NCBI RefSeq assembly: GCF_005871185.1 | Contig: NZ_SWKN01000009.1 | Coordinates: forward strand, 186,001 to 250,000 | Length of the DNA stretch: 64,000 nucleotides | Source: Limnobacter alexandrii | Lineage (GTDB): Bacteria; Pseudomonadota; Gammaproteobacteria; Burkholderiales; Burkholderiaceae_B | Direction: 5' to 3' | Shown here: piece by piece, positions 37,662-55,642 of the stretch | How the letters are laid out: each line of letters opens with the position of its first letter | How positions within the stretch are numbered: position 1 is the first letter of the stretch | Translations under genes and position numbers: made by a program | The notes under the pieces: generated by a model | Database searches by the model: none | What the model saw: only the letters and a program-made list of their open reading frames with translations | Told to the model about the DNA's origin: nothing

Positions 37662-37903
37662 GGTGATGCTTAGAGTTGGATTATTTGGGCGGAAAAACAA
37701 AACGATATCGGGAATAAACGGCCTGTTGAATTAGCGAATACCGAAGTTCACCATCAGATATGCACTTACACAATGTAAGAACTTGTCAACTTCTACAAAA
37801 ACTCAATCCACACGACATTCTTGAAAGTATTGAGTAAGGCTCATCTGTTGAGCTACTACTTATTTAAAGTACTCATTACGTTAATGTTCCTCGGCAAGGT
37901 GTT

Positions 37904-40900
37904 GTGCAAAAACATAAGCAACAAATTCTCTTTTCAGCTTCAGATCTAACTTACTTCGCCGAGTGCAAACACCGCACTTGGCTTGATCGCTGCCACCTTG
38001 ATACGCCCATGGAGAAAACCGCCGAGACGGAATCCATGAGACTAATCATGGACAAGGGTTTGGAGCACGAGGCCGCGCATTTGAAGGCCCTTCAAGAACA
38101 AGGCTTGAATGTTGCTGTCATTCAAGCCGAAGACTTGGCCGAAAAGGTTCGACTAACCAGGGAAGCTATTCATAGCGGCGCAGACGTGGTGTTTCAAGCA
38201 ACCCTACGCCGTGATACCTATATTGGACATGCCGACTTTCTACTTCGTACCAATAAGAAAAGCCCAACTGGGCATTGGGTTTACGAAGTGGCCGACACCA
38301 AACTTTCACACCACACGAAAACCAAATTTTTGGTGCAACTGTGTTTCTACAGTGACCTGCTCAGCGACATCACCGGGCAACTACCCGAACAAATTCACGT
38401 TGAACTGGGCAACAGGCACCGCGACACCTTTCGCGTGAATGATTACTTTGCTTACTACAGCAAGCTGAAGACTGATTTCGAACGCAGTCTAAGCAACCAT
38501 TCTTCAACTGCGGCCTCCTACCCCGACCCCTGCGACTTATGCAGCATGTGCCACTGGCGCGACCGTTGTGATGAACAACGCCTGAAAGACGACCACCTTA
38601 GCCAGGTTGCGAATATTACTAAAACTCAAATCGTAAAGCTGAGCGCCCAAGGGGTCAGAACCATGAAGGCCCTAGCGCAACTGGCTGAGCCAGAGAAGAT
38701 CAAAGGCCTACAAGAACCCACCCTGCTTCGTCTTATCGATCAGGCGGCTTTGCAAGTGCATGAAAATGAAACGGGCGAAGCGGTTGCGAAATGCTTGAAC
38801 AATCTAGAACCCGGCAAAGGGTTTGAGCGCATGCCCCCGCCCGACGAAGGCGATTTGTTCTTCGACATGGAAGGCGACCCAATGTACCCCGAGGGCCTTG
38901 AGTACTTGTTCGGCGTGTATTACTTCGAGCTGGGTGAAGCCAAATTCAAAGCGTTTTGGGCACACAACCGCCCCGAGGAAGGACAAGCATTTTCGGACTT
39001 CATGAATTTTGTAAACAATCGATTAGCGCAATATCCCAATGCCCACATCTACCACTATGCCCATTACGAAAAAACTGCGCTAAAGCGCTTGATGAGCGTT
39101 CATGGCGTGCATGAAGATTCAGTAGACAATTTGCTTCGCCACCACAAGCTGGTCGACCTCTATAAAGTGGTGCGGGAGGGTTTGCGAATTTCCAAACCCA
39201 GCTATTCGATTAAGCAAGTCGAGAAGTTTTACAGCACTGCCCGCACAGTGGAAGTAACCAATGCAGCAGATTCAATCGTGGTATATGAACGCTGGCGGCA
39301 CGAGCAAAACCCAGCATTGCTTCAAAGCATCGAAGACTACAACTTCGACGACTGCAAATCGACCTGGGAACTGCGCCAATGGTTGTTAAAACAACGCCCC
39401 GCAACTGCAGCTTGGTTTGACAAGAATCGCGAACTGCCAACCAAGCCACTGAGCGACAAAGACATTCAACGCGCTGAACTGCGCGCGCAAAACCAGGCTA
39501 TTCATGAGGCCTATTTGGCTGAACTACCTGCTCGCTTGGCCAACGGAGTACGCACACAAAACCTGCCACGCAGTTATCAGCAACTGCTCTTTCAAATGAT
39601 CGACTTCCACAAGCGGGCTGCCAAGCCAGGCTGGTGGGCAATATTCGAACGCATTGAAGCCGAGGTAGAAGAACTTCTTGATGACATGGAAGTAATCGCC
39701 AACCTTCAGTTTGCTGACAAACTAGTCAACGGGAAAATACCCCGCCAAACCAAATGGAAGTTCCCGGAACAGGAATTCAAATGCAAGGCAGGCGACGGAA
39801 TCAAAATACTCGACCCGGATGAAATGGTTAGCGGCACCATTCACAGTATTGATGAAGACAATTGCGAATTGGTGCTTAACTGCACACGATTGCCCCTGAA
39901 ATATATCGATCCAGGGCAAACCATGCACATATCAGCAGGCGCCCCGTTTGATGCGGACATTATTGCTGACGCAGTTCGCCGATTCGTTGAAAGCGAAATT
40001 GAGGGTGATTCAGATCACGCTGCAGTTCGACAGTTTTTACTTCGACAGCCGCCACGCTTTTTTAACAAGATGCCTGGCGACATTCTGGTTCAAGATGAAA
40101 AAGTCTGCGGGCAAACCACACTGCAACAAACACTGGCCCTGGTCAGCAACATGAACAAAAGCTGTTTATTTGTTCAAGGCCCGCCAGGCACTGGCAAAAC
40201 TTACACAGGCAGCCACGTGATTGCAGAGCTGATTCGCCAAGGCAAAAAAGTAGCGATTAGTTCGAACAGCCACAAAGCCATCAACAACCTGGTTGAACGC
40301 ACTGCGCAGGTTTTGGAACGCATGGGGCACAGCTACGACGGCATAAAAATTTGCAGCAAGGAAGACCAAGAAGTTGAAGGTTACGGGCTGACGAATTGCC
40401 AAAAGAAAGACCTGTTTGACGATGAGGCGTTGACCAAACAGGAAGCCCCTGATTTGCTAGCGGGTACGGCCTGGCTGTTTTCCAGCTGGCAGCTGTTGAA
40501 TTGCTTCGACTACCTGTTCATAGATGAAGCAGGCCAAGTGGCCACCGCCAACACTGTGGCCATGGGCCAATGCGCCGACAACATTGTGCTGCTTGGCGAC
40601 CAAATGCAATTGGGCCAACCCATACAAGGTGATCACCCTGGTGAAAGTGGACTTTCCACACTTGAATACCTACTAGGCCACAAGGCGACCATACCCGCAG
40701 ACACTGGCGTATTCCTAGACCAAAGCTTTCGGATGCACCCCGATGTGTGCAATTACATTTCCAACACCTTCTACGAAGGCCGATTGCGAAACGCACCGCA
40801 AACAGAAAAACAGGGGCTGATATTGAGTGGCTGGCTGGCCAATAAGTTTTCAGCAACTGGGGTGTACTGCTTCCCGGTGGAGCATGACGGTAACTCGCAG

Positions 40901-41323
40901 AGAAGCATTGAAGAAGCTGATGCCATCAAACGGATGTATTTGGAATTGATGGAGCAGCGCTTTATTGGACCGAAAGGTGAAGTGCTGCCTATGAACGCTG
41001 AGGAAATCATGGTGGTTGCACCATACAACGCGCAAGTCAACCTACTAAAACGAGTCCTTCCTGAAGGCGCACGGGTTGGTACAGTGGATAAATTTCAAGG
41101 GCAAGAAGCGCAAGTGGTGCTGGTTTCAATGACCACGTCGAATGAAAACCACATGCCAAGGTATTTGGAGTTTTTATTTAGTCGGAACCGGTTGAATGTT
41201 GCTGTGAGCAGGGCCAAGAGCTTGGCGGTGGTGGTGATGAGCCCGGGCCTAGCGGAGGTAAGAAGTGAGAAGCCGGAGACGTTGGGGTTGATAAATACGT
41301 TTATTGGACTGGTGGAAAAATAA
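37904..41323 (+). CDS. TM0106-type RecB-like nuclease / RNase H-like / SF1 helicase fusion
   Basis: A 1139-residue three-part DNA-processing protein. Residues 1-225 form a RecB/Cas4-like nuclease with likely Fe-S cysteines (FAECKHRTWLDRC and DPCDLCSMCHWRDRC near 208-222). An RNase H-like exonuclease domain follows around 315-490 (LFFDMEGDP, YHYAHYEKTALKRL, DYNFDDCKSTWELRQWL). The C-terminal half is a Dna2/Upf1-like SF1 helicase: GPPGTGKT at about 762, LFIDEAGQ at about 871, GDQMQLGQ, then FQGQEAQVVLVSMTTSN and NVAVSRAK. It starts with GTG preceded by AAGG. It stands alone at the left edge of the defence island, with AT-rich DNA on both sides. Confidence 0.85.
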   Translation: MQKHKQQILFSASDLTYFAECKHRTWLDRCHLDTPMEKTAETESMRLIMDKGLEHEAAHLKALQEQGLNVAVIQAEDLAEKVRLTREAIHSGADVVFQATLRRDTYIGHADFLLRTNKKSPTGHWVYEVADTKLSHHTKTKFLVQLCFYSDLLSDITGQLPEQIHVELGNRHRDTFRVNDYFAYYSKLKTDFERSLSNHSSTAASYPDPCDLCSMCHWRDRCDEQRLKDDHLSQVANITKTQIVKLSAQGVRTMKALAQLAEPEKIKGLQEPTLLRLIDQAALQVHENETGEAVAKCLNNLEPGKGFERMPPPDEGDLFFDMEGDPMYPEGLEYLFGVYYFELGEAKFKAFWAHNRPEEGQAFSDFMNFVNNRLAQYPNAHIYHYAHYEKTALKRLMSVHGVHEDSVDNLLRHHKLVDLYKVVREGLRISKPSYSIKQVEKFYSTARTVEVTNAADSIVVYERWRHEQNPALLQSIEDYNFDDCKSTWELRQWLLKQRPATAAWFDKNRELPTKPLSDKDIQRAELRAQNQAIHEAYLAELPARLANGVRTQNLPRSYQQLLFQMIDFHKRAAKPGWWAIFERIEAEVEELLDDMEVIANLQFADKLVNGKIPRQTKWKFPEQEFKCKAGDGIKILDPDEMVSGTIHSIDEDNCELVLNCTRLPLKYIDPGQTMHISAGAPFDADIIADAVRRFVESEIEGDSDHAAVRQFLLRQPPRFFNKMPGDILVQDEKVCGQTTLQQTLALVSNMNKSCLFVQGPPGTGKTYTGSHVIAELIRQGKKVAISSNSHKAINNLVERTAQVLERMGHSYDGIKICSKEDQEVEGYGLTNCQKKDLFDDEALTKQEAPDLLAGTAWLFSSWQLLNCFDYLFIDEAGQVATANTVAMGQCADNIVLLGDQMQLGQPIQGDHPGESGLSTLEYLLGHKATIPADTGVFLDQSFRMHPDVCNYISNTFYEGRLRNAPQTEKQGLILSGWLANKFSATGVYCFPVEHDGNSQRSIEEADAIKRMYLELMEQRFIGPKGEVLPMNAEEIMVVAPYNAQVNLLKRVLPEGARVGTVDKFQGQEAQVVLVSMTTSNENHMPRYLEFLFSRNRLNVAVSRAKSLAVVVMSPGLAEVRSEKPETLGLINTFIGLVEK

Positions 41324-41590
41324 TAATCAACATTAAAGGATTCCAAACGTTACTTTTTGGTAGTCTAAATAAAATACAGGAACCTCCTGTAAATTAAAAA
41401 AATGTAAATTATATAATCTACTTTTTTGGCAGATATTATTATCTTAACTTCATAATTTAATTAATTAATTCACCGCCTTTTTACAAAAATACAATTTTAT
41501 TCCTAGTAAAAATATTTTCAAATTAGGCAAAAATATTTCTCAATTCTGAAAAAATAAATTTACTAATTTTTAATAAGGCCCTACCTATTT
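41324..41590. other. AT-rich region upstream of the MORC-Z1 operon
   Basis: 267 bases, very AT-rich with several A/T runs, and no open frame of note. It presumably holds the promoter of the four-gene operon, but so many TATAAT-like hexamers occur that none can be chosen. The composition contrasts sharply with the genes to the left of the island. Confidence 0.6.
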
Positions 41591-43075
41591 ATGCGCGATG
41601 ATCCACAAATAATAGCCATTGAGTTAACGCCACGTGCCTCCGTAATGATCGAAGCCATGCGAGATATTGGCTATTCTTTTGACTCTGCTGTTGCGGACAT
41701 CATTGACAACAGTATTGCTGCAGGTGCCAACGAGATAAAGCTGCGGTATGGCTGGGAAGCAGACCTCCCATGGATTGCCATAATCGACAATGGCGAGGGT
41801 ATGAGCCGCGCGCAATTGCTCGAAGCACTAAGGCCTGGATCAAAGGATCCAAGACTTGAGCGCGAGAAAAATGATCTCGGGAGGTTTGGTTTGGGATTAA
41901 AAACAGCTTCTTTTAGTCAATGTCGAGAATTGACGGTACTTTCTTGCCAAGCTTCGACCTTGAATGTAATGCGCTGGGACCTTGATCGAGTGTCAGAAAC
42001 TGACCGCTGGGAAATTACTGAACTAAGTGCTGAGGAATCGTCCTCGCTGCCTTGTGAATCACCTAACTCTAGCAAGGGTACCACGGTGTTGTGGCGGAAG
42101 CTTGATCGTCTAGAGCTTGCTGGGCTTGGCGAAATGGGACACGAAGCGTTTAATGAACTGATGTTCTCGGTGCGTCAGCATCTGTCGAGAATTTTCCATC
42201 GATTCTTGGCTGGGGAACCCGGACTGAGAAAAATCAGTATGACTATAAATGGGACAGCAATCGAGCCTTATGACCCTTTTGCAGAATCCAATATTGCAAC
42301 TCAAAAGTTTCCTGTCGAGATTGTACGTTTCAAGGATAGTCAAGTTACCGTTCAAGCATTTGTATTACCGCACCATTCAAAGATAACTGCAAAAGAGTAC
42401 GAACGGCTAGCAGGACCCGAGGGGTATCTTAGGAATCAAGGGTTTTATATTTATCGAAACCGTCGCCTGATTATTTGGGGAAGTTGGTTTAGACTCGCTC
42501 GTCAAGAAGAGCTGACCAAGCTTGCAAGGATCAAAATTGATATCCCTAACAATCTAGATAATCAGTGGGGTATTGATGTTCGCAAGGCACGAGCTAATCC
42601 GCCGCTAATTGTTAGAAACAGACTGAAGCAAATCATTGAACAGATACGGACAGGAGCCAAAAGACCTTATACGTTAAGGGGGAGGGTTGCCATAGAAAGT
42701 GGTGCGGTGCCCGTATGGGTCCGAAAGATCCACAATGAAAAGATTGAGTACCTTATCAATGACGAACATCCCTTGATTGCTGAACTGATTTCAAATCTTC
42801 AAGATACGGAAAGATCTCGTTTAAGACAGATACTTAGAATGTTTGGCCAAGCCTTTCCTGCAGCCACATTTTTTAGCGATTACTCAAATGCCCCCAAGCA
42901 GTTGGAATCTGGCCAGCTGGATATTGAAGCCATGGTTTCGCTTGCGACTTTACTTCTCCAATCAAATTCGCAACTTGATACAACAGGAGCGATAGCGTTG
43001 CTAGGAGGTATGGAGCCTTTCAACCGATACCCTGAACAACTTGGCGTAATTACAAAACGTGCGATGGCAAACTAA
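41591..43075 (+). CDS. MORC/MutL-like GHKL ATPase of a restriction-type system
   Basis: A 494-residue ATPase. The GHKL motifs are complete: N-box D36-IID-N40, G1 IIDNGEGM (66-71) and G2 GRFGLGLKTASFSQ (97-110). This places it with the HSP90/MutL/MORC group, in which ATP binding closes a dimer clamp. The following S5-like segment contains YRNRRLIIWGSWFRL and DIPNNLDNQWGIDVRK. It is the first gene of a rightward four-gene operon, and the Z1 gene begins 16 bases later. Prokaryotic MORC-like ATPases next to Z1, DUF4420 and AIPR genes were predicted to be restriction-modification components. GC content is visibly lower than in flanking housekeeping genes. Confidence 0.88.
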   Translation: MRDDPQIIAIELTPRASVMIEAMRDIGYSFDSAVADIIDNSIAAGANEIKLRYGWEADLPWIAIIDNGEGMSRAQLLEALRPGSKDPRLEREKNDLGRFGLGLKTASFSQCRELTVLSCQASTLNVMRWDLDRVSETDRWEITELSAEESSSLPCESPNSSKGTTVLWRKLDRLELAGLGEMGHEAFNELMFSVRQHLSRIFHRFLAGEPGLRKISMTINGTAIEPYDPFAESNIATQKFPVEIVRFKDSQVTVQAFVLPHHSKITAKEYERLAGPEGYLRNQGFYIYRNRRLIIWGSWFRLARQEELTKLARIKIDIPNNLDNQWGIDVRKARANPPLIVRNRLKQIIEQIRTGAKRPYTLRGRVAIESGAVPVWVRKIHNEKIEYLINDEHPLIAELISNLQDTERSRLRQILRMFGQAFPAATFFSDYSNAPKQLESGQLDIEAMVSLATLLLQSNSQLDTTGAIALLGGMEPFNRYPEQLGVITKRAMAN

Positions 43076-43091
43076 ATAAAAGAGGAAAAAA

Positions 43092-45782
43092 ATGTCATTT
43101 CAAAATCTTCAGAACAGCGCAATCGGCCTGCTTTCGAATATGCCCAACCGCACCCCTGAGCAAGTTAGGGTTGTCCTAAAAACGTTGTTACCCCTGTTCC
43201 CCCAACTTTCAGATCTAGTATCAGAAAGCCAAATCGAGGAAGTTGCTCGACAGATTGAAACCCAGCTTTCCATTACGATGCAGGACGCTTCTACCATTCA
43301 AACGGATTTTGAGGAATGGCTGCCTGGCCGCCGCTCCGAAATGGTTCCTTACTACTATGACCGTTATAGAAAGTATCTTAGTAGCAAGGGATTTGGAACA
43401 GCGGTTCTAGGTGTATTGGACAAAGATACGGATAAGGTAGTGGGGTTGATGCAAGATCCAGATAAGTCTGGACGATGGGCGAGGCGTGGCTTAATAGTAG
43501 GAAATGTACAGTCGGGAAAGACGGCCAATTACACTGGTGTTATCTGCAAGGCCGCAGATTATGGATATAAATTCATTGTCATTCTCACAGGTATTCAAGA
43601 AGATCTGCGAATCCAGACTCAGGAACGAATCGAGGAGGGTTTCGTAGGTATCAGTTCAGAGGCAACATCCGGAAAAGATTCCGCTATTGGAGTTGGTCTT
43701 TATGGCCTTGAACGACGCCCCATTTGCCTCACTACTCGCGCAGATGATTTCAGGGCTAACGCGAGAGACTTGGGTGTTTCCTTGCAGTCACTGAGCGAAC
43801 CGCTTGTCTTGGTGATGAAGAAAAACTCTCGCACACTAGCCAATCTGATTGACTGGCTGGAGATTAGAAACCGGCAAGCGGGTGCCAGGATTAGTAGCAT
43901 CCCGATGCTTCTAGTTGATGATGAGGCTGACAACGCATCAGTAAACGTTTCAAAGACAGAAGATTCTCCTTCAGCAATTAACGACCGAATCCGCAAACTC
44001 CTCGATTCATTCGACAAGAATGCCTACTTAGGCTATACAGCGACTCCATTTGCGAACATCTTCATCGATCCAGACGGGAAAGACGCGATGGAGCGTGAAG
44101 ATCTTTTTCCGAGAGATTTCATAATATCTCTTGATGCACCATCGAACTATGTGGGAGCGTCTAGGATATTTCACGAGTCTGGGGATTTGCATGAGACGCT
44201 CGTTACAGTGGATGACCATTCCGAGGTCTTGCCTGAGCGGCACAAGATATCTCACCCACTATCGCAAATTCCCGAAAGTCTCAAGGACGCGGTACGTACG
44301 TTCGTGCTGTCGAGAGCTATTCGAATCGTTCGCGGTCAGGACAAAAGCCATTCGTCAATGCTGGTGAACGCCTCGCGTTTCAATGACGTGCAGACAAAAC
44401 TGACTGGCCTTGTATCCGACCATTTAAACTCGATACGTTCAGCTTGTATTGGTCACGCTGGGTTAGCCGAAAAAGAGGCCCTTGCCGACCCTGAGTTAAA
44501 TAAGCTCAAGGAAACATGGACAGAACGATATGAAAATAAACTACCCGAAAAGTGGAAGGAGATTCAAGCCGCACTGGTAAGGGCAGTTGGTCCCATTGAG
44601 GTCAGAAAGGTAAACAGTAAGTCACCCGACAAACTAGACTACAGGCGCTACAGAAATGAAGGGCTTCATGTAATTGCAATCGGAGGATTTGCACTGTCAC
44701 GAGGTTTTACTTTGGAAGGACTTACCGTCAGTTATTTTTTGCGCAACTCAATGATGTACGACACGCTACTGCAGATGGGTCGCTGGTTCGGATATCGCGA
44801 CGGTTATTCAGATGCTTGTCGTATTTATATGACTGACGAAGCTATTGATTGGTATGCGCATATTTCTGAGGCAAATGATGAGTTAAGGCATGAGTTCAAC
44901 AGAATGGAACGAGCTGGGGCCAAGCCCGTTGACTTTGGCCTCAAAGTCAGAGCACACCCTGAATCCTTGATTGTCACAGCCCGAAACAAGATGAAATCTG
45001 GCCAAAAGATACGTCACTCAGTATCCCTTGCCGGGAAAATGATCGAGACACAACGTTTGCGAACTGATGCCACAGCAACAAACAGGAAGGTTCTTAGCAA
45101 CCTTCTAGATTCTTTAGCCCATATCGGCATGCCGGATACTACAGGTAATTTTGGGTACTTGTGGACTAACGTGGCTGTTGCATCATTGGTGCGAAATTTT
45201 GTTTCCAACTTCCAGAATCACGATGATGTTGCATTGATCACACAGGCGGAACCAGTCAACGCCTATATTAAAGCACGGGAAACAGACGAGCTTGCTTATT
45301 GGGATGTATGTCTGTTTAGCCCCGCAAGTGGTACCAAAGCCACCGAATCCTTTGGTGGTTTTATACCAAATGTCCAGGCCCGATCTTCATTATGGAAACG
45401 GAGCCCCTCTGGTGTGGAATATATCGCGGTTAGTGGCAAGGCTCTGAGGGTAGGAAGTCGAGGACAAGTCAAGGTCGGCATGACTGAAACAGAGCGAAGA
45501 ACAGCGGAATTATCATGGCCTAAAGAAAGTGATATCCCGGACTATCACTACATCCAGCATCGCACACGCCCCTTGCTTATGCTTCACGTCTTGGATATTT
45601 GGGACAAAGAAACTGACAAGGAGAGACAAAATGCCGCTGCTTTATCTAATGTTGTCGCGTGGGGAATAGCATTTCCAAATTCCGGATACAGGACGACCGA
45701 AGTCACCTACGTGGTAAATACGACTTGGTGGGCAGAGAATTTTGGCGTCGACGAAGGTGATGGAGAAGCAGATGAAGACTGA
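43092..45782 (+). CDS. Z1-domain SF2-like ATPase/helicase
   Basis: An 896-residue protein. Walker A is GNVQSGKT at 137-144, Walker B is LVDDEAD near 275-281, and later helicase-like motifs are TPFANIFIDP, IAIGGFALSRGFTLEGL and LLQMGRWFGYRDGY. These are the hallmarks of the Z1 family, described as an ATP-dependent endonuclease/helicase component. It probably remodels or translocates DNA for the nuclease encoded next. GAGG about eight bases upstream supports the ATG. Its 3' end overlaps the DUF4420 gene by 11 bases, so the proteins are likely made in fixed ratio. Confidence 0.9.
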   Translation: MSFQNLQNSAIGLLSNMPNRTPEQVRVVLKTLLPLFPQLSDLVSESQIEEVARQIETQLSITMQDASTIQTDFEEWLPGRRSEMVPYYYDRYRKYLSSKGFGTAVLGVLDKDTDKVVGLMQDPDKSGRWARRGLIVGNVQSGKTANYTGVICKAADYGYKFIVILTGIQEDLRIQTQERIEEGFVGISSEATSGKDSAIGVGLYGLERRPICLTTRADDFRANARDLGVSLQSLSEPLVLVMKKNSRTLANLIDWLEIRNRQAGARISSIPMLLVDDEADNASVNVSKTEDSPSAINDRIRKLLDSFDKNAYLGYTATPFANIFIDPDGKDAMEREDLFPRDFIISLDAPSNYVGASRIFHESGDLHETLVTVDDHSEVLPERHKISHPLSQIPESLKDAVRTFVLSRAIRIVRGQDKSHSSMLVNASRFNDVQTKLTGLVSDHLNSIRSACIGHAGLAEKEALADPELNKLKETWTERYENKLPEKWKEIQAALVRAVGPIEVRKVNSKSPDKLDYRRYRNEGLHVIAIGGFALSRGFTLEGLTVSYFLRNSMMYDTLLQMGRWFGYRDGYSDACRIYMTDEAIDWYAHISEANDELRHEFNRMERAGAKPVDFGLKVRAHPESLIVTARNKMKSGQKIRHSVSLAGKMIETQRLRTDATATNRKVLSNLLDSLAHIGMPDTTGNFGYLWTNVAVASLVRNFVSNFQNHDDVALITQAEPVNAYIKARETDELAYWDVCLFSPASGTKATESFGGFIPNVQARSSLWKRSPSGVEYIAVSGKALRVGSRGQVKVGMTETERRTAELSWPKESDIPDYHYIQHRTRPLLMLHVLDIWDKETDKERQNAAALSNVVAWGIAFPNSGYRTTEVTYVVNTTWWAENFGVDEGDGEADED

Positions 45783-46716
45783 AAACCCTTGGGGAGGCTT
45801 GTCTCGGCCTGGAGTGGGCGAACTCAGCGCTAAGCGAGCAGATGCCGCTCACCCGTTCGATTTTTTCCACGCATTAAATCATGATGGGCAACTAATGCTG
45901 ATTTTGCGATTGAAATCAGCAAGTATTGAACATCGAAAATTACCTCGCTTGAAGGGTTTGAAAGTTCAATGGACTTCCAATAGTTCATCACTTCAGTTGA
46001 TCCTCGCTGAGTCGAGGGATGTAGATCTTTTTACCTTGATCTGCAAGGATCTTATGCGGACAACCTTTTCTGCGGGTTCGGATATTGACTGTCTTGAATC
46101 GCTTTGCACTCGACTACTCAAGTGGCAACGGTTGCTATCAAAAGGTGGCCCACGCCTTTTATCGGAGCAAGAGATCCGCGGCCTATTTGCAGAGTTGATT
46201 TTTTTTCAAGAGGAACTTCTGCCCCGGCTAGGGCCTGATGCACTGGGGGCGTGGAAGGGACCATCTGGATTTCCTCAGGATTTTACGGTTGATGATAAAG
46301 TCTTTGAAATCAAGTCGCATCTTGTAGGGTCTCCACAAACTATTCGTATTTCTTCTACCGCGCAATTGTGGGTTGAAAGTGCGGACCTTTTCCTTTGCGT
46401 ATATCACTTGGCGGAGCATTTAACCGGCGGGCGGAGTCTTGCGTCCCTGATTAACAACATTGCCACAGCCCTGAGTTCATGGAGTTCCGCAGTCGAGGAG
46501 TTCGAAGAGAAACTGGCGAGTTTGGGATATCTTGAAATGCCAGAATATCATTCGCGTGAGTTTTCAATAATTCAACGGGATACATTCATTGTTAGTGGCG
46601 GTTTTCCTCGAATCACTCCCTTTGATGTTCGCTCTGGTATCAGCGAAGTGAATTATGGCATTCAACTGGCTGCCTTGTATCCGTTTCAAACCACTCTTGA
46701 TTGGAGCGACGCATAG
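45772..46716 (+). CDS. DUF4420 PD-(D/E)XK nuclease-like protein
   Basis: A 314-residue protein of the DUF4420 type, placed in the PD-(D/E)XK nuclease superfamily. Likely active-site residues are E131 (LFAELIF), D160 (PQDFTV), and E169 and K171 in VFEIKSHL. It is the presumed DNA-cleaving subunit of the MORC-Z1 system. I chose ATG 45772, inside the end of the Z1 gene, because GGAG is six bases upstream and the product begins KTENPWGGL, as family members do; the frame extends ten codons further to 45742. The AIPR gene starts three bases after its stop. Confidence 0.82.
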   Translation: MKTENPWGGLSRPGVGELSAKRADAAHPFDFFHALNHDGQLMLILRLKSASIEHRKLPRLKGLKVQWTSNSSSLQLILAESRDVDLFTLICKDLMRTTFSAGSDIDCLESLCTRLLKWQRLLSKGGPRLLSEQEIRGLFAELIFFQEELLPRLGPDALGAWKGPSGFPQDFTVDDKVFEIKSHLVGSPQTIRISSTAQLWVESADLFLCVYHLAEHLTGGRSLASLINNIATALSSWSSAVEEFEEKLASLGYLEMPEYHSREFSIIQRDTFIVSGGFPRITPFDVRSGISEVNYGIQLAALYPFQTTLDWSDA

Positions 46717-46719
46717 CCT

Positions 46720-48777
46720 ATGAAAGACGATTATTTTCTCGCCGAGATCCTACAACAAGTAAATGCTAGGTCCCTAGCCACTTCAGATTTTTCCGAACCT
46801 GCTTTTGCATCTGTTGTAGCTGAGGCGTTGGTTGATTCAGGGGCTATACTTGGGTTCGAACCCGCTTTTTTCTCACATAAGGGCATGCGAGTCGACGGGT
46901 ATAACTATTCTGAAGAAGAAGCCACCCTTGATCTGTTTGTTGTCGATTTTCACGATGATCCTCAAGTGCAAAGCCTAACGCAGACGCAACTTGAAACTTT
47001 TTTGAAACGCGCCGAAACGTTCTTTGAGCGAGCCGTTGATAATGATCTTGCGTGGGAGGTTGATGTGGGAAGCAGCATCTGGAGCTTGGCTAGGCAACTC
47101 GCGCAGATGGGAGAGTCGATAGTTCGTATCAGGTTAAACGTTCTTTCTAATGCAAAACTCTCGAATAAGGTAAAGACACTTCCTACGAAAAAGAAAGGTG
47201 ATAGAGAGTGGGCTTTGAAGGTATGGGATCTGTTAGCGATTGGACGGATGCTGTCTACAGGAGAACCCGAACCTATCATTATCAACTTTAAAGAAATGTT
47301 TGGCAAAGGTCTCCCCTGCCTCCCCGCGAATTCGGGTGGAAATGAGCTTGATTCTTATCTGACCGTTATTCCAGGGGATTGGCTAGCAGAAATATACGAT
47401 CTGTACGGCGGTCGGCTTCTAGAGCAAAATGTACGGACGTTTCTTCAGGCCACTAGGGGCGTCAATAAGGGTATTCGAAAAACCATTCTTGAAGAGCCTC
47501 AAATGTTCTTTGCCTATAACAATGGCATTTCGGCTACTGCTGCAAAGGGAGAATTCGATGTGCAAGGCGAGCAAATTCTGCTCAACCGCCTTGAGAATCT
47601 GCAGATCGTCAATGGAGGCCAAACAACAGCATCAATTTTTAACGTCATGAAGCGGGATAAAGCAGAGAACCTTGATCGAGTGCGGGTACAGATGAAGCTC
47701 TCTGTGGTCCAGCCTGATTTAGTGGATGCAATCGTTCCACGAATCTCGCTTTTTGCAAACAGCCAAAACAAGGTAAGCGATGCCGACTTCTTCTCCAACC
47801 ATCCTTTTCACAGGCGTGTAGAAAACTTTTCGCGGAATGTATGGGCACCAGCTGGCGAGGGTACTCAGCAAATGACCCACTGGTTCTACGAGAGGGCAAG
47901 GGGGCAGTATAGCAATGCATCTGCATATCTGACGACCTCAAAAAAGAAGGAGTTTGAAGTTCAGAACCCTAGGAAACAATTGATTCATAAAACTGATATT
48001 GCCAAGGTATTGGTGACCATCATGTGTATGCCACACATAGTTAGCCAAGGGGCTCAAAAAAACTTCAAGTTTTTCGCTGAAAATGTTACCGGGCGATGGG
48101 GGGACGAAGGAGTTGCATTTGGTGAGGATTGGTTTAAGGGAATTATTGGGGCCACCATCGTCTTCCGGACTCTCGAACGTCTGGTGGGACAGGCGGATTG
48201 GTACGCGCAAGGTTACAGGGCCAATACTGTTACCTACTCAATTTCACTTTTGATTCACCGCCTCAAGAGCAAACAGATGGATATCGATTTCATGAAAATA
48301 TGGAATCGTCAAGCAACTTCCACCAGCCTTAACAAGGCCCTTCTGCGGATTGCACATCAGGTTCAATCAAGAATCATCAAGGCAGCAGATACTTACAAGG
48401 TCGTTAACGTGACCGAGTGGTGCAAGCGTGAAAAATGCTGGGAAGATATTTTGCAATCAGTCGAGGTCCTGCTCGACGGAGATCTGGCAAGAGATCTGGT
48501 TAATGCTCATGAAAAAGAGAGCGCTCAAAGATCTGCTAGACGAGAGCAAAAGGTTTTGAATGATATTGAGGCGCAAACTTATGTCGTTGGTCGCGGGGCC
48601 TCCTACTGGTCAAAGATACATCGATGGGCTAGTGAAGGTTTAAGTATGACACCGAGCGAAATTGATTTTCTTAGCCTTGCTGCGGCAATGTCAAGCAGGA
48701 AAATTCCTTCTGGTCCACAAAGCCAGAAAATCATACTTGCAGAGAAAAAAGCTCTATCTGATGGCTTTAAACCATAA
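46720..48777 (+). CDS. AIPR-family protein
   Basis: A 685-residue protein with the AIPR core at about 200-380: NVRTFLQATRGVNKGIRKTI, FFAYNNGISATA, LQIVNGGQTTASIF and QNKVSDADFFSNHPFHRRVE. AIPR proteins are named for abortive-infection phage resistance and recur in phage-defence and restriction loci; their biochemistry is poorly known. The N-terminus (RVDGYNYSEEEATLDLFVVDF) looks like the core of a restriction-endonuclease fold, so it may be a second nuclease. It is the last gene of the operon, converging on the methyltransferase gene 179 bases away. Confidence 0.87.
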   Translation: MKDDYFLAEILQQVNARSLATSDFSEPAFASVVAEALVDSGAILGFEPAFFSHKGMRVDGYNYSEEEATLDLFVVDFHDDPQVQSLTQTQLETFLKRAETFFERAVDNDLAWEVDVGSSIWSLARQLAQMGESIVRIRLNVLSNAKLSNKVKTLPTKKKGDREWALKVWDLLAIGRMLSTGEPEPIIINFKEMFGKGLPCLPANSGGNELDSYLTVIPGDWLAEIYDLYGGRLLEQNVRTFLQATRGVNKGIRKTILEEPQMFFAYNNGISATAAKGEFDVQGEQILLNRLENLQIVNGGQTTASIFNVMKRDKAENLDRVRVQMKLSVVQPDLVDAIVPRISLFANSQNKVSDADFFSNHPFHRRVENFSRNVWAPAGEGTQQMTHWFYERARGQYSNASAYLTTSKKKEFEVQNPRKQLIHKTDIAKVLVTIMCMPHIVSQGAQKNFKFFAENVTGRWGDEGVAFGEDWFKGIIGATIVFRTLERLVGQADWYAQGYRANTVTYSISLLIHRLKSKQMDIDFMKIWNRQATSTSLNKALLRIAHQVQSRIIKAADTYKVVNVTEWCKREKCWEDILQSVEVLLDGDLARDLVNAHEKESAQRSARREQKVLNDIEAQTYVVGRGASYWSKIHRWASEGLSMTPSEIDFLSLAAAMSSRKIPSGPQSQKIILAEKKALSDGFKP

Positions 48778-48956
48778 CTTAGCAAAAATGGAAATTTCCT
48801 TGCCTTTTGGAAAGTAAGTCAAGCCGATACGGCATGGTGATGGACCAATTTTATCCTATTTAAAATGCTCTCATTCTATTTTTAACATTGAGGATTGATC
48901 GCTTGTTTTCGTCGACTGTGAACTTTTGCAAACACCACGAGCATAATATTAAAAAC

Positions 48957-50510
48957 TCAACTTTGTCGATCAACCTGAATAAATTTAGCCACGATAGAAG
49001 CGATCTTGTTAGCCAATAGGGGAGGCACAGCATTACCAACTTGATGATATTGTTGAGTACGATTACCTTCAAAGAAGTAGTTGTCAGGAAAAGTTTGCAG
49101 TCTCGCAGCCTCGCGCACAGTTAAGCTGCGGCATTGCAGCGGGTCATAATGGATGAAGTAATGCCCGTCTTTCGATATATGGCTAGTAATTGTGGTTGAA
49201 GGTCGCGTTGCTACTTGGACGCGAAATCGATCTGCAAAGCTACCGCTTTCCCAGTTTTTGTGTTCGGGTCTCAACATCTCGAGATTGAAATCTAGATGTC
49301 CCTTTGGAGAAACCCCAAGCTCTTGAGCAAATAGAGCGGCATAAACATAGCGTCCAAGGTCGCTGCGCATGTGGCCTCGCGCTTCATGATTTAGCCAACA
49401 ACCAGCCAAACGATCATCCAGCAACCATTCGTCTAAAGTGGACACTCCTGTACGTCCATCATAATTAATGTCTCCACCCACATATCGGAGAGCTCCAATT
49501 TGTTCTGATCGAAAATCTGATTGACTGACCTTTGCGAGCGTAGGCTGCAAGGCGGGGCGTGATTGCTTAGCCAGATTCGCAGCATACCAACGAATTACAT
49601 TTTGCCAGTTTTGTACGCTGTCAACCTCCTTGCTAAGGCGGCTTCGCAAAGGCGGCAACTTGCCTATTGCTTGGGCCACACTCACATGTTCCTGAACAGG
49701 CGCCAACTTTGGGTGCGGCAAGCCAGAATTGAAGTCCTCCCTAATACCCAGCAGAATTACGCGATGTCTCGCCTGTGGGATGCCAAAATTTTCAGCACGG
49801 ATAATGTAGTCAGCGGGATTAATTGCAGATGGCTCATCATCAGCATGAAACTCGGTATCGCAAACAAGTGAACAGATACGATACTTTAGGTCGTGCTTTG
49901 CCAGACCAAGGGCTTCACCCGGGGCTGCCAAGTCCCGCAGAATTGAGTGAAAAATATGTTCGTTCCCGACCTTGGCAGAAAGGATACCCTTCACGTTTTC
50001 CATTACGAATATCGCTGGCTGATAGCGACCAATGATATTGAGATATTCACGATACAGGAAGTGACGGTGATCTTCCTCGGCTTTGTATTCGTTGTTACCC
50101 TTGTTGCGCGACCGTCCCGCCAGCGAGTAGGCTTGGCAAGGGGGGCCCCCAATCAATACCCAAGGCTGTTCATGACCCAGTTCTTTCCTATCCAGAATGT
50201 CGTAAAGGTGGGTATTGCCCGCAATACTACCCAGCTCAATAATTTGAGCTTCAGCATTCGCATGAGCCCAAGCATTCTCGCTACCCTTGCTCACGGGCGA
50301 GGTACTTTGCCCGAGACAATAAGAAAAATAGTCTTTCAGCATTTCTGGCTTATTACGGCTTAGATAACGATAAAAAGCTCGTAGACGAAGTGTCTGCCGA
50401 GCAACTGGATCTTTCTCGGCAGAGACTACGATATCGAATTCACTATCGTGACTCGCAAAACCTTCACCCAAACCACCTGGGCCTGCAAACAAATCGACAA
50501 CTAAGGTCAT
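48957..50510 (-). CDS. dcm: DNA (cytosine-5)-methyltransferase
   Basis: C5-cytosine methyltransferase of 517 residues. Motif I is DLFAGPGGLGEGF, motif IV is GGPPCQAYS with nucleophile C125, motif VI is MENVK (170-174), motif VIII is QARHRVILLG, motif IX is REAARLQTFPD and motif X is YHQVGNAVPP. The target-recognition region lies between about 290 and 440, and its sequence specificity cannot be read. A long insert between motifs I and IV is typical of one Dcm subgroup. Divergent from vsr (53 bases) and convergent with the AIPR gene. It is the likely modification enzyme of the island. Confidence 0.93.
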   Translation of the reverse strand: MTLVVDLFAGPGGLGEGFASHDSEFDIVVSAEKDPVARQTLRLRAFYRYLSRNKPEMLKDYFSYCLGQSTSPVSKGSENAWAHANAEAQIIELGSIAGNTHLYDILDRKELGHEQPWVLIGGPPCQAYSLAGRSRNKGNNEYKAEEDHRHFLYREYLNIIGRYQPAIFVMENVKGILSAKVGNEHIFHSILRDLAAPGEALGLAKHDLKYRICSLVCDTEFHADDEPSAINPADYIIRAENFGIPQARHRVILLGIREDFNSGLPHPKLAPVQEHVSVAQAIGKLPPLRSRLSKEVDSVQNWQNVIRWYAANLAKQSRPALQPTLAKVSQSDFRSEQIGALRYVGGDINYDGRTGVSTLDEWLLDDRLAGCWLNHEARGHMRSDLGRYVYAALFAQELGVSPKGHLDFNLEMLRPEHKNWESGSFADRFRVQVATRPSTTITSHISKDGHYFIHYDPLQCRSLTVREAARLQTFPDNYFFEGNRTQQYHQVGNAVPPLLANKIASIVAKFIQVDRQS

Positions 50511-50563
50511 AAGACTACAATAGAATTTATTTGGGTCATAAAGATATCAGGAATGATGGCCGA

Positions 50564-51001
50564 ATGACAGATATTGTAGATAAGCAAACTCGCTCCAGAA
50601 TGATGAGCAATATTCAGAGTGCAGATACAAAACCAGAAATGGCAGTACGCCGCATACTTTACAGTGCCGGTTTACGCTATCGACTTCATGTCCCTACTCT
50701 GCCTGGCAAACCCGACATAGTCATGCAAAGGTATAAGCTTTGCATTTTCGTTCACGGATGTTTTTGGCACCGTCACTTCAACTGTAAGTATGCTTCGACG
50801 CCTGCTACTCGCAGTGAGTTTTGGCAAAAAAAGTTCATGCAGAACAGCTTGCGGGATCGAGCAGCTGTTGATGCACTGAAAGAACAGGGATGGCGTGTGT
50901 TCATACTTTGGGAATGCGGAATTAAAAAGCAATCTTTAGATTGGTTGCCAAGCGTTGTAGCCAGTCCTGTCAATTCGCTCGAATGGCCTCAACTCAACTA
51001 G
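50564..51001 (+). CDS. vsr: Very short patch repair (Vsr) mismatch endonuclease
   Basis: A 145-residue nuclease that nicks at T:G mismatches produced by deamination of 5-methylcytosine. DIVDKQTRSRMMSNIQSADT, the catalytic Asp in LPGKPDIV, and FVHGCFWHRHFNC with zinc/His ligands match Vsr. Its presence beside dcm shows that the island's methyltransferase makes 5-methylcytosine at a site that needs deamination repair. ATG 50564 is preferred since Vsr proteins start close to DxVDKxTRSxMM; the open frame extends to TTG 50531. Confidence 0.93.
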   Translation: MTDIVDKQTRSRMMSNIQSADTKPEMAVRRILYSAGLRYRLHVPTLPGKPDIVMQRYKLCIFVHGCFWHRHFNCKYASTPATRSEFWQKKFMQNSLRDRAAVDALKEQGWRVFILWECGIKKQSLDWLPSVVASPVNSLEWPQLN

Positions 51002-51049
51002 TAGAGACCAGTTACCCTCACGACATCGGAATCACAATCCTCCTCATAC

Positions 51050-51994
51050 TTATCCCTTAAACACAACTTTCCGGTGATACTTCAAATATTCCTCACGCCG
51101 AGCATTCCTGAATTTTTCTGGGAGAAACCTTTCTTCCTCCAGCCCAAGACATTTCCTAGCAGATTGACTAAGTATCGATGACTTCAACACACGCCACTCT
51201 TCATCGAACGCCACTAGGCCAGCGTCAAACGCTGCATCCCAAAGTGATGATAATAAAAGCCCATTATCACAACATCCTCTAGCATCTGGATTATTTTCAC
51301 AGTGCGCCCAAGGCTGTATATGCGATGCGATCAATAGCTCTTTGCCCTCGATGCCCGACATCCAACAAACCTCACCGGCGATATCTAGAAGAGCTGATCG
51401 AAAAGCTCCCTGACCAAAACGAACCTTGACCACTGCCTCCCGTTCGCCTGCACTAAGGTTCGTGGTATCACTTTCCAGCGTTCTTTGAACATTGTCAGTA
51501 ATCATTGATGAATTAGGCGCCTGCGGTTGTGCAGCCTTGGAATCAGTAACCAAGCGCTCGGCCTCTTTAACCGTAAACGACTCTTTGATAGAAAAATACC
51601 AGTTCAAAACACGTTGAAATTCTGCCGGAGTCGAGACAGAGACACGCATAGCAGAATTAAATTTTGGATTGATAGACGGCAACCGGGCGGCCGACGAAGA
51701 CAAACCCTTATCGCCAGTTTTACCTTGATATCCCATGGGATACCTTTCTGTGACAATCGCCTGAGGAAAGGTATTTTCAGGAAAAATATCGCCCGAGACC
51801 GATCTCTGATTCATATAAATGGTCACTCCATTTTGAGTGCCCTTTCTTACAATCGCGATATGTCTACCTGAGCGACCAAATCGGTATGTTTTATCAACAT
51901 GTGCCACACCTTTCTTAGGTCCAATTTCGGCAAAAAATGGCGTGATGCCATCTATCTTCTCGGTAATAGTTTTTGCAATCTCAGGGGTAATCAT
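51050..51994 (-). CDS. HNH endonuclease (restriction-type)
   Basis: A 314-residue protein. The C-terminal HNH_2-type domain reads FRSALLDIAGEVCWMSG, then LLIASHIQPWAHC, DNGLLLSSLWDAAFDAG, with the HNH histidine in SHIQPW and the following Asp-Asn-Gly. The N-terminal 180 residues are unrecognised and may bind DNA or modified bases. It lies convergent with vsr, so it could be the cleaving partner for the Dcm or an independent nuclease. ATG 51994 has GGAAG six bases upstream; the frame extends to TTG 52057. Confidence 0.8.
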   Translation of the reverse strand: MITPEIAKTITEKIDGITPFFAEIGPKKGVAHVDKTYRFGRSGRHIAIVRKGTQNGVTIYMNQRSVSGDIFPENTFPQAIVTERYPMGYQGKTGDKGLSSSAARLPSINPKFNSAMRVSVSTPAEFQRVLNWYFSIKESFTVKEAERLVTDSKAAQPQAPNSSMITDNVQRTLESDTTNLSAGEREAVVKVRFGQGAFRSALLDIAGEVCWMSGIEGKELLIASHIQPWAHCENNPDARGCCDNGLLLSSLWDAAFDAGLVAFDEEWRVLKSSILSQSARKCLGLEEERFLPEKFRNARREEYLKYHRKVVFKG

Positions 51995-52118
51995 TAAATC
52001 TTCCGCGTATATCGAAGTTGTCTTCTCAATCAGATTTCGATTGACGTTGTGGAGCAATATAAATTTCGCTTAGCCAAGTCATTCACAAGGCAAGCGAAAC
52101 ATCGATCAAAAAAATATG

Positions 52119-52535
52119 TTATCGAATCGAGGTTGTTTCTGTTCTCTTTTCTTGAGCACTTTCTTTTTCAAGAGTGATGGTAGTCGTATTCGGGTACTGC
52201 CACATGGCCCCAGTCACCATGTCGGTAATACCCAAATCGATAAATACCCCACCCACGACACCTGCCGTGTCAGCTGAGCTTACCAAGCGGGTAATCTTCT
52301 GGGCATGCCCTTCAGCCTGACACTTCACCAAAATATCGTCCTTATCCTTACCCACAGTCACTGTGTTATTTCGGGCATTGATCGATCCAATTTCACCATC
52401 ACCATCACGACTCAAAGTACACCGTGTTTCTTGGGGATCCAAGTTAAAAACCAAGGTTTGGCTAGTACCTTTGGTGATCGATGCACAACCAGTGGCAAAC
52501 AACACAACAAGCAACGCCGGGACATATATCTTCAT
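52119..52535 (-). CDS. Small lipoprotein
   Basis: A 138-residue lipoprotein. The signal peptide MKIYVPALLVVLFATGC ends in a lipobox Cys and is followed by ASITKGTSQTL. The mature part is beta-rich (TRCTLSRDGDGEIGSI, VKCQAEGHAQK), like small PEGA-like envelope lipoproteins of unknown function. The longer open frame to 52634 lacks a signal sequence, so ATG 52535 is the start. It is an ordinary cell-envelope gene sitting inside the defence island and may be unrelated cargo. Confidence 0.78.
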   Translation of the reverse strand: MKIYVPALLVVLFATGCASITKGTSQTLVFNLDPQETRCTLSRDGDGEIGSINARNNTVTVGKDKDDILVKCQAEGHAQKITRLVSSADTAGVVGGVFIDLGITDMVTGAMWQYPNTTTITLEKESAQEKRTETTSIR

Positions 52536-52651
52536 GGTGGGTCTCAAATAAAGAGGGTTATGCAGCCAATTCTGTTGGCGGCTGTCTGGGAATATCCCCA
52601 AACATGAACCCAGTTTGAACACCATGAAGCTCACAGCATGAGCCTGCTCAT

Positions 52652-54298
52652 TTAATTGTTACTTTCACCCAACAACAGCCCGGCCGCCTCTTGTGTCATC
52701 ACCAAAGCCAACCGCAGCCTGGCTCTACTCATCCCCACAAAAAGTCGTCGCTTTCGGTTTTCATCCAGCTCCTGAAAATCAAGCTCGGTGAGCACCACGC
52801 AGTTTGCGGACCGCCCCTTGAATCGAAATACTGTGTCGGCCAACACCTCGCCATCCGAATACTCAAAATCTCCGGACACTGTTCGCCCAACAATCTTTTT
52901 AAGACAATGCTTCCCTATCAAATCATGTTTAAGCAAATCACTAGATTCCGCGCCTTTCACTGTTAGCAATGCAATTTCGTCCTTCACATGCCCCTCGGCC
53001 AACAACTGCGTAAGTACTTTTTCAGTGGCTTTCAGTAAGGAATCAATATTGCCTGCCTCGAAAACTTCAAGAATTGACGGCAGCCCCTCCACCACACTTC
53101 TGCTAACAATTGGCTGGGCAGCCAAGCCAAATTCATTGATATGGTCAGTCACAATTCGCGGACAACGATAAGTCACCTGGTGATCAATTTTTATCCAACC
53201 ACCAAAGTCTGCACTCACTCTTGAATATAGTTTTTGGTTTTCATCCATCAAAACAATCAAGCGCCCACCGGGCTTACAAAGCTTAAACAAGGTGTTCAGC
53301 CACAGAGCCTCAAAGTCTTGGGCCTCATCAATCAGCAAAACGTCTACGCTGTTTGCAAACTGCTCAACATGGTCGGCAAAGTATTCTGCACTCTGCTCAA
53401 AGCCTGGGGCACTTGGCTTGTAATCGAAACCATTTGACTCGTACAGCACACGTGCCAATTCGTGAAAAGTTGTACAGGTATCTGGCCGCCCAGTCGCCTT
53501 TTTCATGTCTTCCGCCAAGTTACGGTTAAAGCACACATACAACGCGGCTTGGCCAACAGACTCTGCGGCAGCCAGCTCGTCGAGTGCCAACTGTGTTTTG
53601 CCCGATCCAGCGGTGGCATTAATCAACAAACGAAACGGCGCTCCGCTCATCTGGCCTACCCATTCCGACAAGCCAGCAGCCTGCTCTATGTAAGCTGATT
53701 TGGCTAAGCCACCCAAAAAGCCGATGTCATAGCGTACGTTCAGTTGATTGGTTAAAAAGGCGGAAATTAAAACTGCATCAGCACATGTGTGTCTGGCGGT
53801 AGCTCTTTCAGTGAGCACATGCTGCACAATCTCTGGCAGCACATCCGCTTGTGGTTGGTCAACAACTCGGTCTGCTGGAATTCCAACAATTGATTTGTCT
53901 TTGATTGTGTAATCAGGGCAATACATCAACAAATCAATATCAAGTTTTTGGCCACTTCGGTTTTCAAAAGCGGTTTGCAAATTTTCCAAGTTTCGGTTCA
54001 TTTGCATATTCACGCTTTTTTGCTGAGCGCCATACAACTTACTAACACCATCCTTGCCTTCAAGCAGGCCACCATTCTTTTGTTCAATTAACAAAAGGCG
54101 GCCAGTTGGGCTCAACACAATGAAATCGATTTCACCCAGAAACGTTTTGTCGCAATTCTGAGTAGCCCAGTGCACCGAGTGAAATACTTTGAAGTGAGGA
54201 GGAAGGTACTCAGCCAACAGCTGCGCAGTTTTGAATTCATTGCGCTTTTTAGCGGGTACCGGGCCGACTAAATCTGCAGAGGGAATAAGTTCAGCCAT
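52652..54298 (-). CDS. NERD-nuclease / SF1 helicase fusion protein
   Basis: A 548-residue protein. The N-terminal NERD domain shows GEID (55-58) and IEQK (71-74), a restriction-nuclease-like active site. The helicase part has NATAGSGKT with Walker A ending at 235, LLIDEAQDF, DENQKLY, TYRCPR and a C-terminal GMSRARLRLALVM, as in UvrD-like or DUF2075 helicases. It should unwind and cut DNA. It lies 27 bases downstream of the WYL regulator gene and is probably controlled by it. NERD-helicase proteins occur in several phage-defence islands. Confidence 0.85.
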   Translation of the reverse strand: MAELIPSADLVGPVPAKKRNEFKTAQLLAEYLPPHFKVFHSVHWATQNCDKTFLGEIDFIVLSPTGRLLLIEQKNGGLLEGKDGVSKLYGAQQKSVNMQMNRNLENLQTAFENRSGQKLDIDLLMYCPDYTIKDKSIVGIPADRVVDQPQADVLPEIVQHVLTERATARHTCADAVLISAFLTNQLNVRYDIGFLGGLAKSAYIEQAAGLSEWVGQMSGAPFRLLINATAGSGKTQLALDELAAAESVGQAALYVCFNRNLAEDMKKATGRPDTCTTFHELARVLYESNGFDYKPSAPGFEQSAEYFADHVEQFANSVDVLLIDEAQDFEALWLNTLFKLCKPGGRLIVLMDENQKLYSRVSADFGGWIKIDHQVTYRCPRIVTDHINEFGLAAQPIVSRSVVEGLPSILEVFEAGNIDSLLKATEKVLTQLLAEGHVKDEIALLTVKGAESSDLLKHDLIGKHCLKKIVGRTVSGDFEYSDGEVLADTVFRFKGRSANCVVLTELDFQELDENRKRRLFVGMSRARLRLALVMTQEAAGLLLGESNN

Positions 54299-54325
54299 GA
54301 TGGGTTACCCAGTCAAATAAGCGCA

Positions 54326-55291
54326 TCACAAATTCTCTAGCCCTTCTTCAAGTGCCTTACGCACTCGATCGCGAACCGAAGGCGGCGACACAACTTTTAC
54401 GAAGGGAACATGGCGCAATATATCCATCACCAGCTCAGTCGGGTTGCTGAACGGTACTTTAAGGCGGTAAACGCCATTTGTAAGAAACGTGGACTCTTGC
54501 TTTGGGTGCCATGTTTCTTTGCTAACCCACTGCGCCCGCGGTGCGGTAAATTCCAACTCGGCGTATTCAATGTCTTTACCGGTGAATGCACCATAACCGG
54601 AATCTAAAATTTCCTGCATTTCAGCTTCATTCATGTCGTGCGCTACAGACTCGCCAATCTCGACGCGCTGAATCGCATCCAAGCCAAAACTTCGTAACTC
54701 ATTACGTAGGTGGCACCAAGCGTCCAAATACCAATTTTCTCGATAGTGCGTAAGGCACTGCGGCGACACCTCACGGCGAACCACATCCCCGCGATTTCTG
54801 TTGTGGTGATCAATGATTATTCGGCGGCGCTGCACCACGGCTGTAGCAATCGGCGTGAAATGTTTTGGTTCGTAGGCTCGGGCGGCAACCTTCTGTATTC
54901 GAATTCGCCTTTGAACTGAATCTGCAGACAAACCCTCGCGTTCCAACAAGCTTTTTAGCCGCGAAAGTAAGGGCTCTACATGGGGCGTTAGTAACCCCGG
55001 GCCAAGCGAGGAAAGCAATTGTTGCATTGTTAGCAATGCGTGAATTTCAGCTGCGCTGAACCACAAGCCTGGAAGTTCATAGGCATCGCCCACACCTTGC
55101 TGTGCAAAACGATAACCACCCGCGTCCCTGTCCCACACCACTGGCGCATTCAAACGGTCTCGCAGGTATTCGAGATCACGCTTGAATGTCGCTGGTGAAA
55201 TTCCCAATTCTTGAAGAAACACATCAACAGCAACCACCTTGCGTTCATTCAGCATGCGGTCGATTTTATAAAGTCGCTCGGTACGGTCCAT
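54326..55291 (-). CDS. WYL-domain transcriptional regulator
   Basis: A 321-residue regulator. The N-terminal winged helix (RLYKIDRMLNERKVVAVDVF, then ISPATFKRDLEYLRDRL) binds DNA. The WYL domain at about 145-230 contains REVSPQCLTHYRENWYLDAWC, with the Arg and aromatic ligand-binding positions. A WCX-type C-terminal domain ends the protein. WYL regulators frequently control phage-defence operons (BrxR and CapW are examples), keeping them silent until infection. It is co-directional with the NERD-helicase gene. Possible operator repeats lie in the 351-base upstream region. Confidence 0.9.
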   Translation of the reverse strand: MDRTERLYKIDRMLNERKVVAVDVFLQELGISPATFKRDLEYLRDRLNAPVVWDRDAGGYRFAQQGVGDAYELPGLWFSAAEIHALLTMQQLLSSLGPGLLTPHVEPLLSRLKSLLEREGLSADSVQRRIRIQKVAARAYEPKHFTPIATAVVQRRRIIIDHHNRNRGDVVRREVSPQCLTHYRENWYLDAWCHLRNELRSFGLDAIQRVEIGESVAHDMNEAEMQEILDSGYGAFTGKDIEYAELEFTAPRAQWVSKETWHPKQESTFLTNGVYRLKVPFSNPTELVMDILRHVPFVKVVSPPSVRDRVRKALEEGLENL

Positions 55292-55642
55292 GTGCTCTCG
55301 GCTATTGTTGGTATTTTTGCTCAGCGTTCATTGTGTTGCCCTTAGCTGAATAACAGCTGACAAATACTAAAAATACTTACTGTCTGGTTCTCTTATGAGC
55401 CAGTTGTATTTGCTGCTATTTGTACCTGCTATAACGAGAAAATAGATTTGCAGTCACGGAGCATTCTCGGCCACCACTTTATCCGGAACGCTATGCCTAA
55501 AAAAACTAAGACATTGATTAATAAAGACAACATCACTACATAGAATGTATCCACTCCCTTACAGGCGAACATCCACGTAAACCACTATGATGGAAGAAAA
55601 TGCAATATCTAAAATCCCAAGACCTTACTCGGACCGCTACTC
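55292..55642. promoter_or_regulatory. Divergent control region between WYL regulator and BLUF gene
   Basis: 351 AT-rich bases with no gene. It must hold promoters in both directions. An inverted repeat AGCTG-AATAA-CAGCT lies at 55344-55358, 53 bases before the WYL start, and could be an autoregulatory site. TATAAC at 55430 is a possible -10 for rightward transcription but lacks a good -35. Confidence 0.4.

Follow-up and report, generated by a model that had tools for sequence, protein, structure and literature searches.

Which kind of anti-virus system is encoded by four tightly spaced genes of Limnobacter alexandrii, and do the DNA methyltransferase and nicking endonuclease genes that adjoin them belong to the same machine? 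The genes lie in a stretch of 64,000 nucleotides (the window; RefSeq GCF_005871185.1, contig NZ_SWKN01000009.1, positions 186,001-250,000, forward), in which an earlier note, made without database searches, had described an operon for MORC-like ATPase, Z1, DUF4420 and AIPR proteins. We find that this operon is an Mza-like cassette for defence against viruses; systems of this type have been predicted before and in part have names. When it is compared with some hundred relatives, the complete form would seem to be a six-gene restriction-modification-like machine. Self DNA is probably marked by the neighbouring C5 methylase, and the DUF4420 protein may be the site-reading cutter. Families were assigned with Pfam-type, NCBIfam and PADLOC profiles, by comparison of a family profile with the PDB and from predicted structures. 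Neighbourhoods were counted over 92 loci (here and below with the window counted), motifs and the tree over 98 homologues, and methylase linkage also over 32 genomes.

The four-gene operon and its relation to Mza

The four-gene operon proposed in the earlier note is real, with homologues of MzaB to MzaE all present and in order (PADLOC 2.7e-95, 9.8e-147, 4.1e-21 and 6.8e-79) and with intact MORC and helicase motifs. The first gene (41591-43075, forward strand) encodes an MzaB-like, MORC-type GHKL/S5 ATPase, for which the profile search that the note had proposed returned HATPase_c_3 at 6.6e-30. The MORC S5 motif GhXhhpXXRhl is found at residue 284 as GFYIYRNRRLI, and the pattern is shared by 85 of the 98 homologues. 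The profile of the ATPase family lies nearer to MORC2 than to MutL, since its first PDB match is human MORC2 (3.3e-10) and MutL follows later (4.3e-6). The second gene (43092-45782, forward) is MzaC-like by its place in the MzaB-E order. The helicase C-terminal motif DThhQXuRhFG reads DTLLQMGRWFG in the window and is matched in 93/98 homologues.

The third gene (45772-46716, forward; alternative TTG start at 45742) encodes the MzaD-like DUF4420 nuclease, whose fold is, in the structure model, type II restriction-endonuclease-like. The E-D-ExK signature given for the restriction-endonuclease-fold protein of the type 3 operons (Iyer 2008) is present in the window system. The MzaE-like AIPR protein (46720-48777, forward; 685 amino acids; AIPR 3.8e-98, AIPR_N 2.8e-35) was modelled with a predicted local distance difference test (pLDDT) value of 88. 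Its modelled N-domain is restriction-endonuclease-like and lacks (D/E)XK, its C-terminus is helical, and its middle domain has a weak likeness to ParB/Srx, for which both the fold and a DGQ(H/Q)R-like motif were examined. A tandem pair of AIPR genes follows DUF4420 in one relative (L069).

The system mzaABCDE was described by Gao 2020, as cited in PMC9523054. None of the four window proteins reached the NCBIfam equivalog cut-offs for Mza (372, 555, 106 and 342.5 bits vs 850, 1500, 420 and 1050). A sigma-bearing control locus of the same genus (L104) also fell below these cut-offs, yet came much nearer (724, 1185, 338 and 898 bits). The sigma factor MzaA is not found at the head of the window operon, where a RecB-like helicase gene precedes it. 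The MzaA profile has three matches in the genome, all confined to its sigma-70 part (positions 428-669 or less), and we take them for ordinary sigma factors; only one of the three falls within the window, namely the rpoD-like gene at 56190-58820. In the tree of 98 loci, all seven MzaA loci form a separate clade (support 1.0) and the window locus stands outside it; AIPR proteins of the MzaA clade are 590-609 amino acids long, shorter than that of the window. The genus, to which L104 and L103 belong as well as the window, has both the sigma-bearing Mza form and the one without MzaA.

The adjoining methylase and Vsr genes

Convergent with the operon lies a gene for a C5 cytosine DNA methyltransferase (48957-50510, reverse strand; PF00145 1.5e-48; TIGR00675 above the NCBIfam cut-off), and divergent from it a gene for a Vsr-type T:G mismatch nicking endonuclease (50531-51001, forward; Vsr 3.4e-31; TIGR00632 above the NCBIfam cut-off). 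Both had been missed in the earlier note, which had also proposed the neighbourhood survey. This survey found a methylase homologue in 89/92 loci and a Vsr homologue in 74/92, so that the methylase is near-constant and Vsr frequent beside such operons, sigma-bearing Mza loci included. The restriction-like interpretation of the note is supported in part, with the methylase linked and the DUF4420 protein as candidate cutter. From co-divergence only, we infer that methylase and operon may share a specificity.

It might be argued that methylase and Vsr form a separate, solitary module which only happens to occur in the same defence islands as the operon, while the operon senses the structure or replication state of phage DNA and not its methylation. 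Defence genes do cluster in islands, other defence-like genes occur in this one, and PMC12907096 describes methylase and Vsr as cooperating outside such operons. We nevertheless consider this unlikely, since a methyltransferase is linked in 30/32 genomes (a raw count, not set against the rate at which C5 methylases adjoin defence genes taken at random) and the other genes of the island are rare among the 92 loci. Less probable still is a surveillance of mismatches or recombination in the manner of MutL and Vsr, in which the GHKL ATPase and Vsr would act at T:G mismatches or heteroduplexes of incoming elements. During very short patch repair, Vsr has MutL as its partner (PMC2292703), and Vsr distances are correlated with MORC distances (r 0.162, p 0.004); however, Vsr was not found in 18/92 loci (some contigs end early), the ATPase profile is closer to MORC2, and DUF4420 would be left without a role. 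A HEPN toxin within AIPR is also unlikely, though more probable than either of these two readings. Among 98 AIPR proteins the R-x4-6-H pair is not conserved (R 80%, H 70%), and in the model the N-domain has an alpha/beta, restriction-like fold instead of an all-helical one. Comparing profiles with those of DUF262 and DGQHR proteins brought no support either, and a toxin has no need of a near-constant methylase.

The island around the operon

The system lies in an acquired island of 17.9 kb (37708-55626) with a guanine-plus-cytosine fraction of 0.468, lower than that of its two flanks (0.538 and 0.529). The insertion site, between a FlgM-like gene on one side and tRNA-Met and the rpoD-like gene on the other, varies in content within the genus. 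Its flanks are nearly joined in two of the five relatives examined (L114-L118): matches of window positions 37707 and 55627 are separated by 206 bases in L114, and the same flanks lie about 250 bases apart in L118. The site is nearly empty in L118, and holds a PDC-M70A-like gene in L114, type IV pilus genes in L117, and a PD-T4-6-like kinase with a Usp domain, DUF4331 and a TonB receptor in L116.

Before the operon stands a TM0106-type RecB-like nuclease fused to a superfamily 1 helicase (37904-41323; RNase_H_2 and AAA_12), with homologues near the operon in 3/92 loci (window, L104 and L027). The HNH_2 protein (51050-52057), which weakly resembles restriction enzymes that depend on phosphorothioate (27.8 bits vs a cut-off of 180), is probably independent of the operon because only 7/92 loci carry it. 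A NERD-UvrD helicase (52652-54298; PADLOC profile of the DRT-associated NERD helicase, 58 bits) was found in 1/92, and an accessory WYL-domain regulator (54326-55291, reverse; WYL 1.9e-18, WCX 6.7e-11) marks the island edge.

Known systems and implications

Among the closest known systems is the type 3 MORC operon described in Iyer 2008 (PMC2292703), which shares the MORC motif, the superfamily II helicase motif, the E-D-ExK protein and neighbourhoods with Dcm and Vsr, with AIPR in a figure legend. That work is a gene-neighbourhood prediction, whereas we count methylase and Vsr and model the nuclease fold. Of the systems in Miller 2022, the putative type II is also close; for it, the part of PMC9523054 consulted does not mention Vsr, which is present at the window locus, and the DUF4220 printed there is taken here as DUF4420. 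GHKL-Shedu VcSduA likewise couples a GHKL ATPase to a PD-(D/E)XK nuclease in anti-phage defence (PMC12137116). The GHKL region of the MORC-type protein (residues 32-173) weakly matches the BbrUII/HgiDII restriction enzymes (NF050001; E 1.9e-6, 26.7 bits vs a cut-off of 550), a possible GHKL-bearing restriction family that would be worth comparing. Dcm-Vsr very short patch repair also has a C5 methylase adjoining a Vsr endonuclease, whereas the window pair adjoins a multi-gene ATPase and nuclease operon.

In the literature searched, which leaves out most subscription journals, we found no paper on how Mza-type systems work. To the known predictions we add the near-constant methylase, the frequent Vsr, also at sigma-bearing Mza loci, and DUF4420 as candidate site-reading cutter. 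If the methylase belongs to the system, an operon tested without it may give misleading results, its transfer would be expected to be toxic and a self-marking step in Mza could be tested at once. The locus would then also show, in a bacterium, a MORC-type protein that works alongside cytosine methylation; how the two are connected is being studied in animals and plants (PMC2292703).
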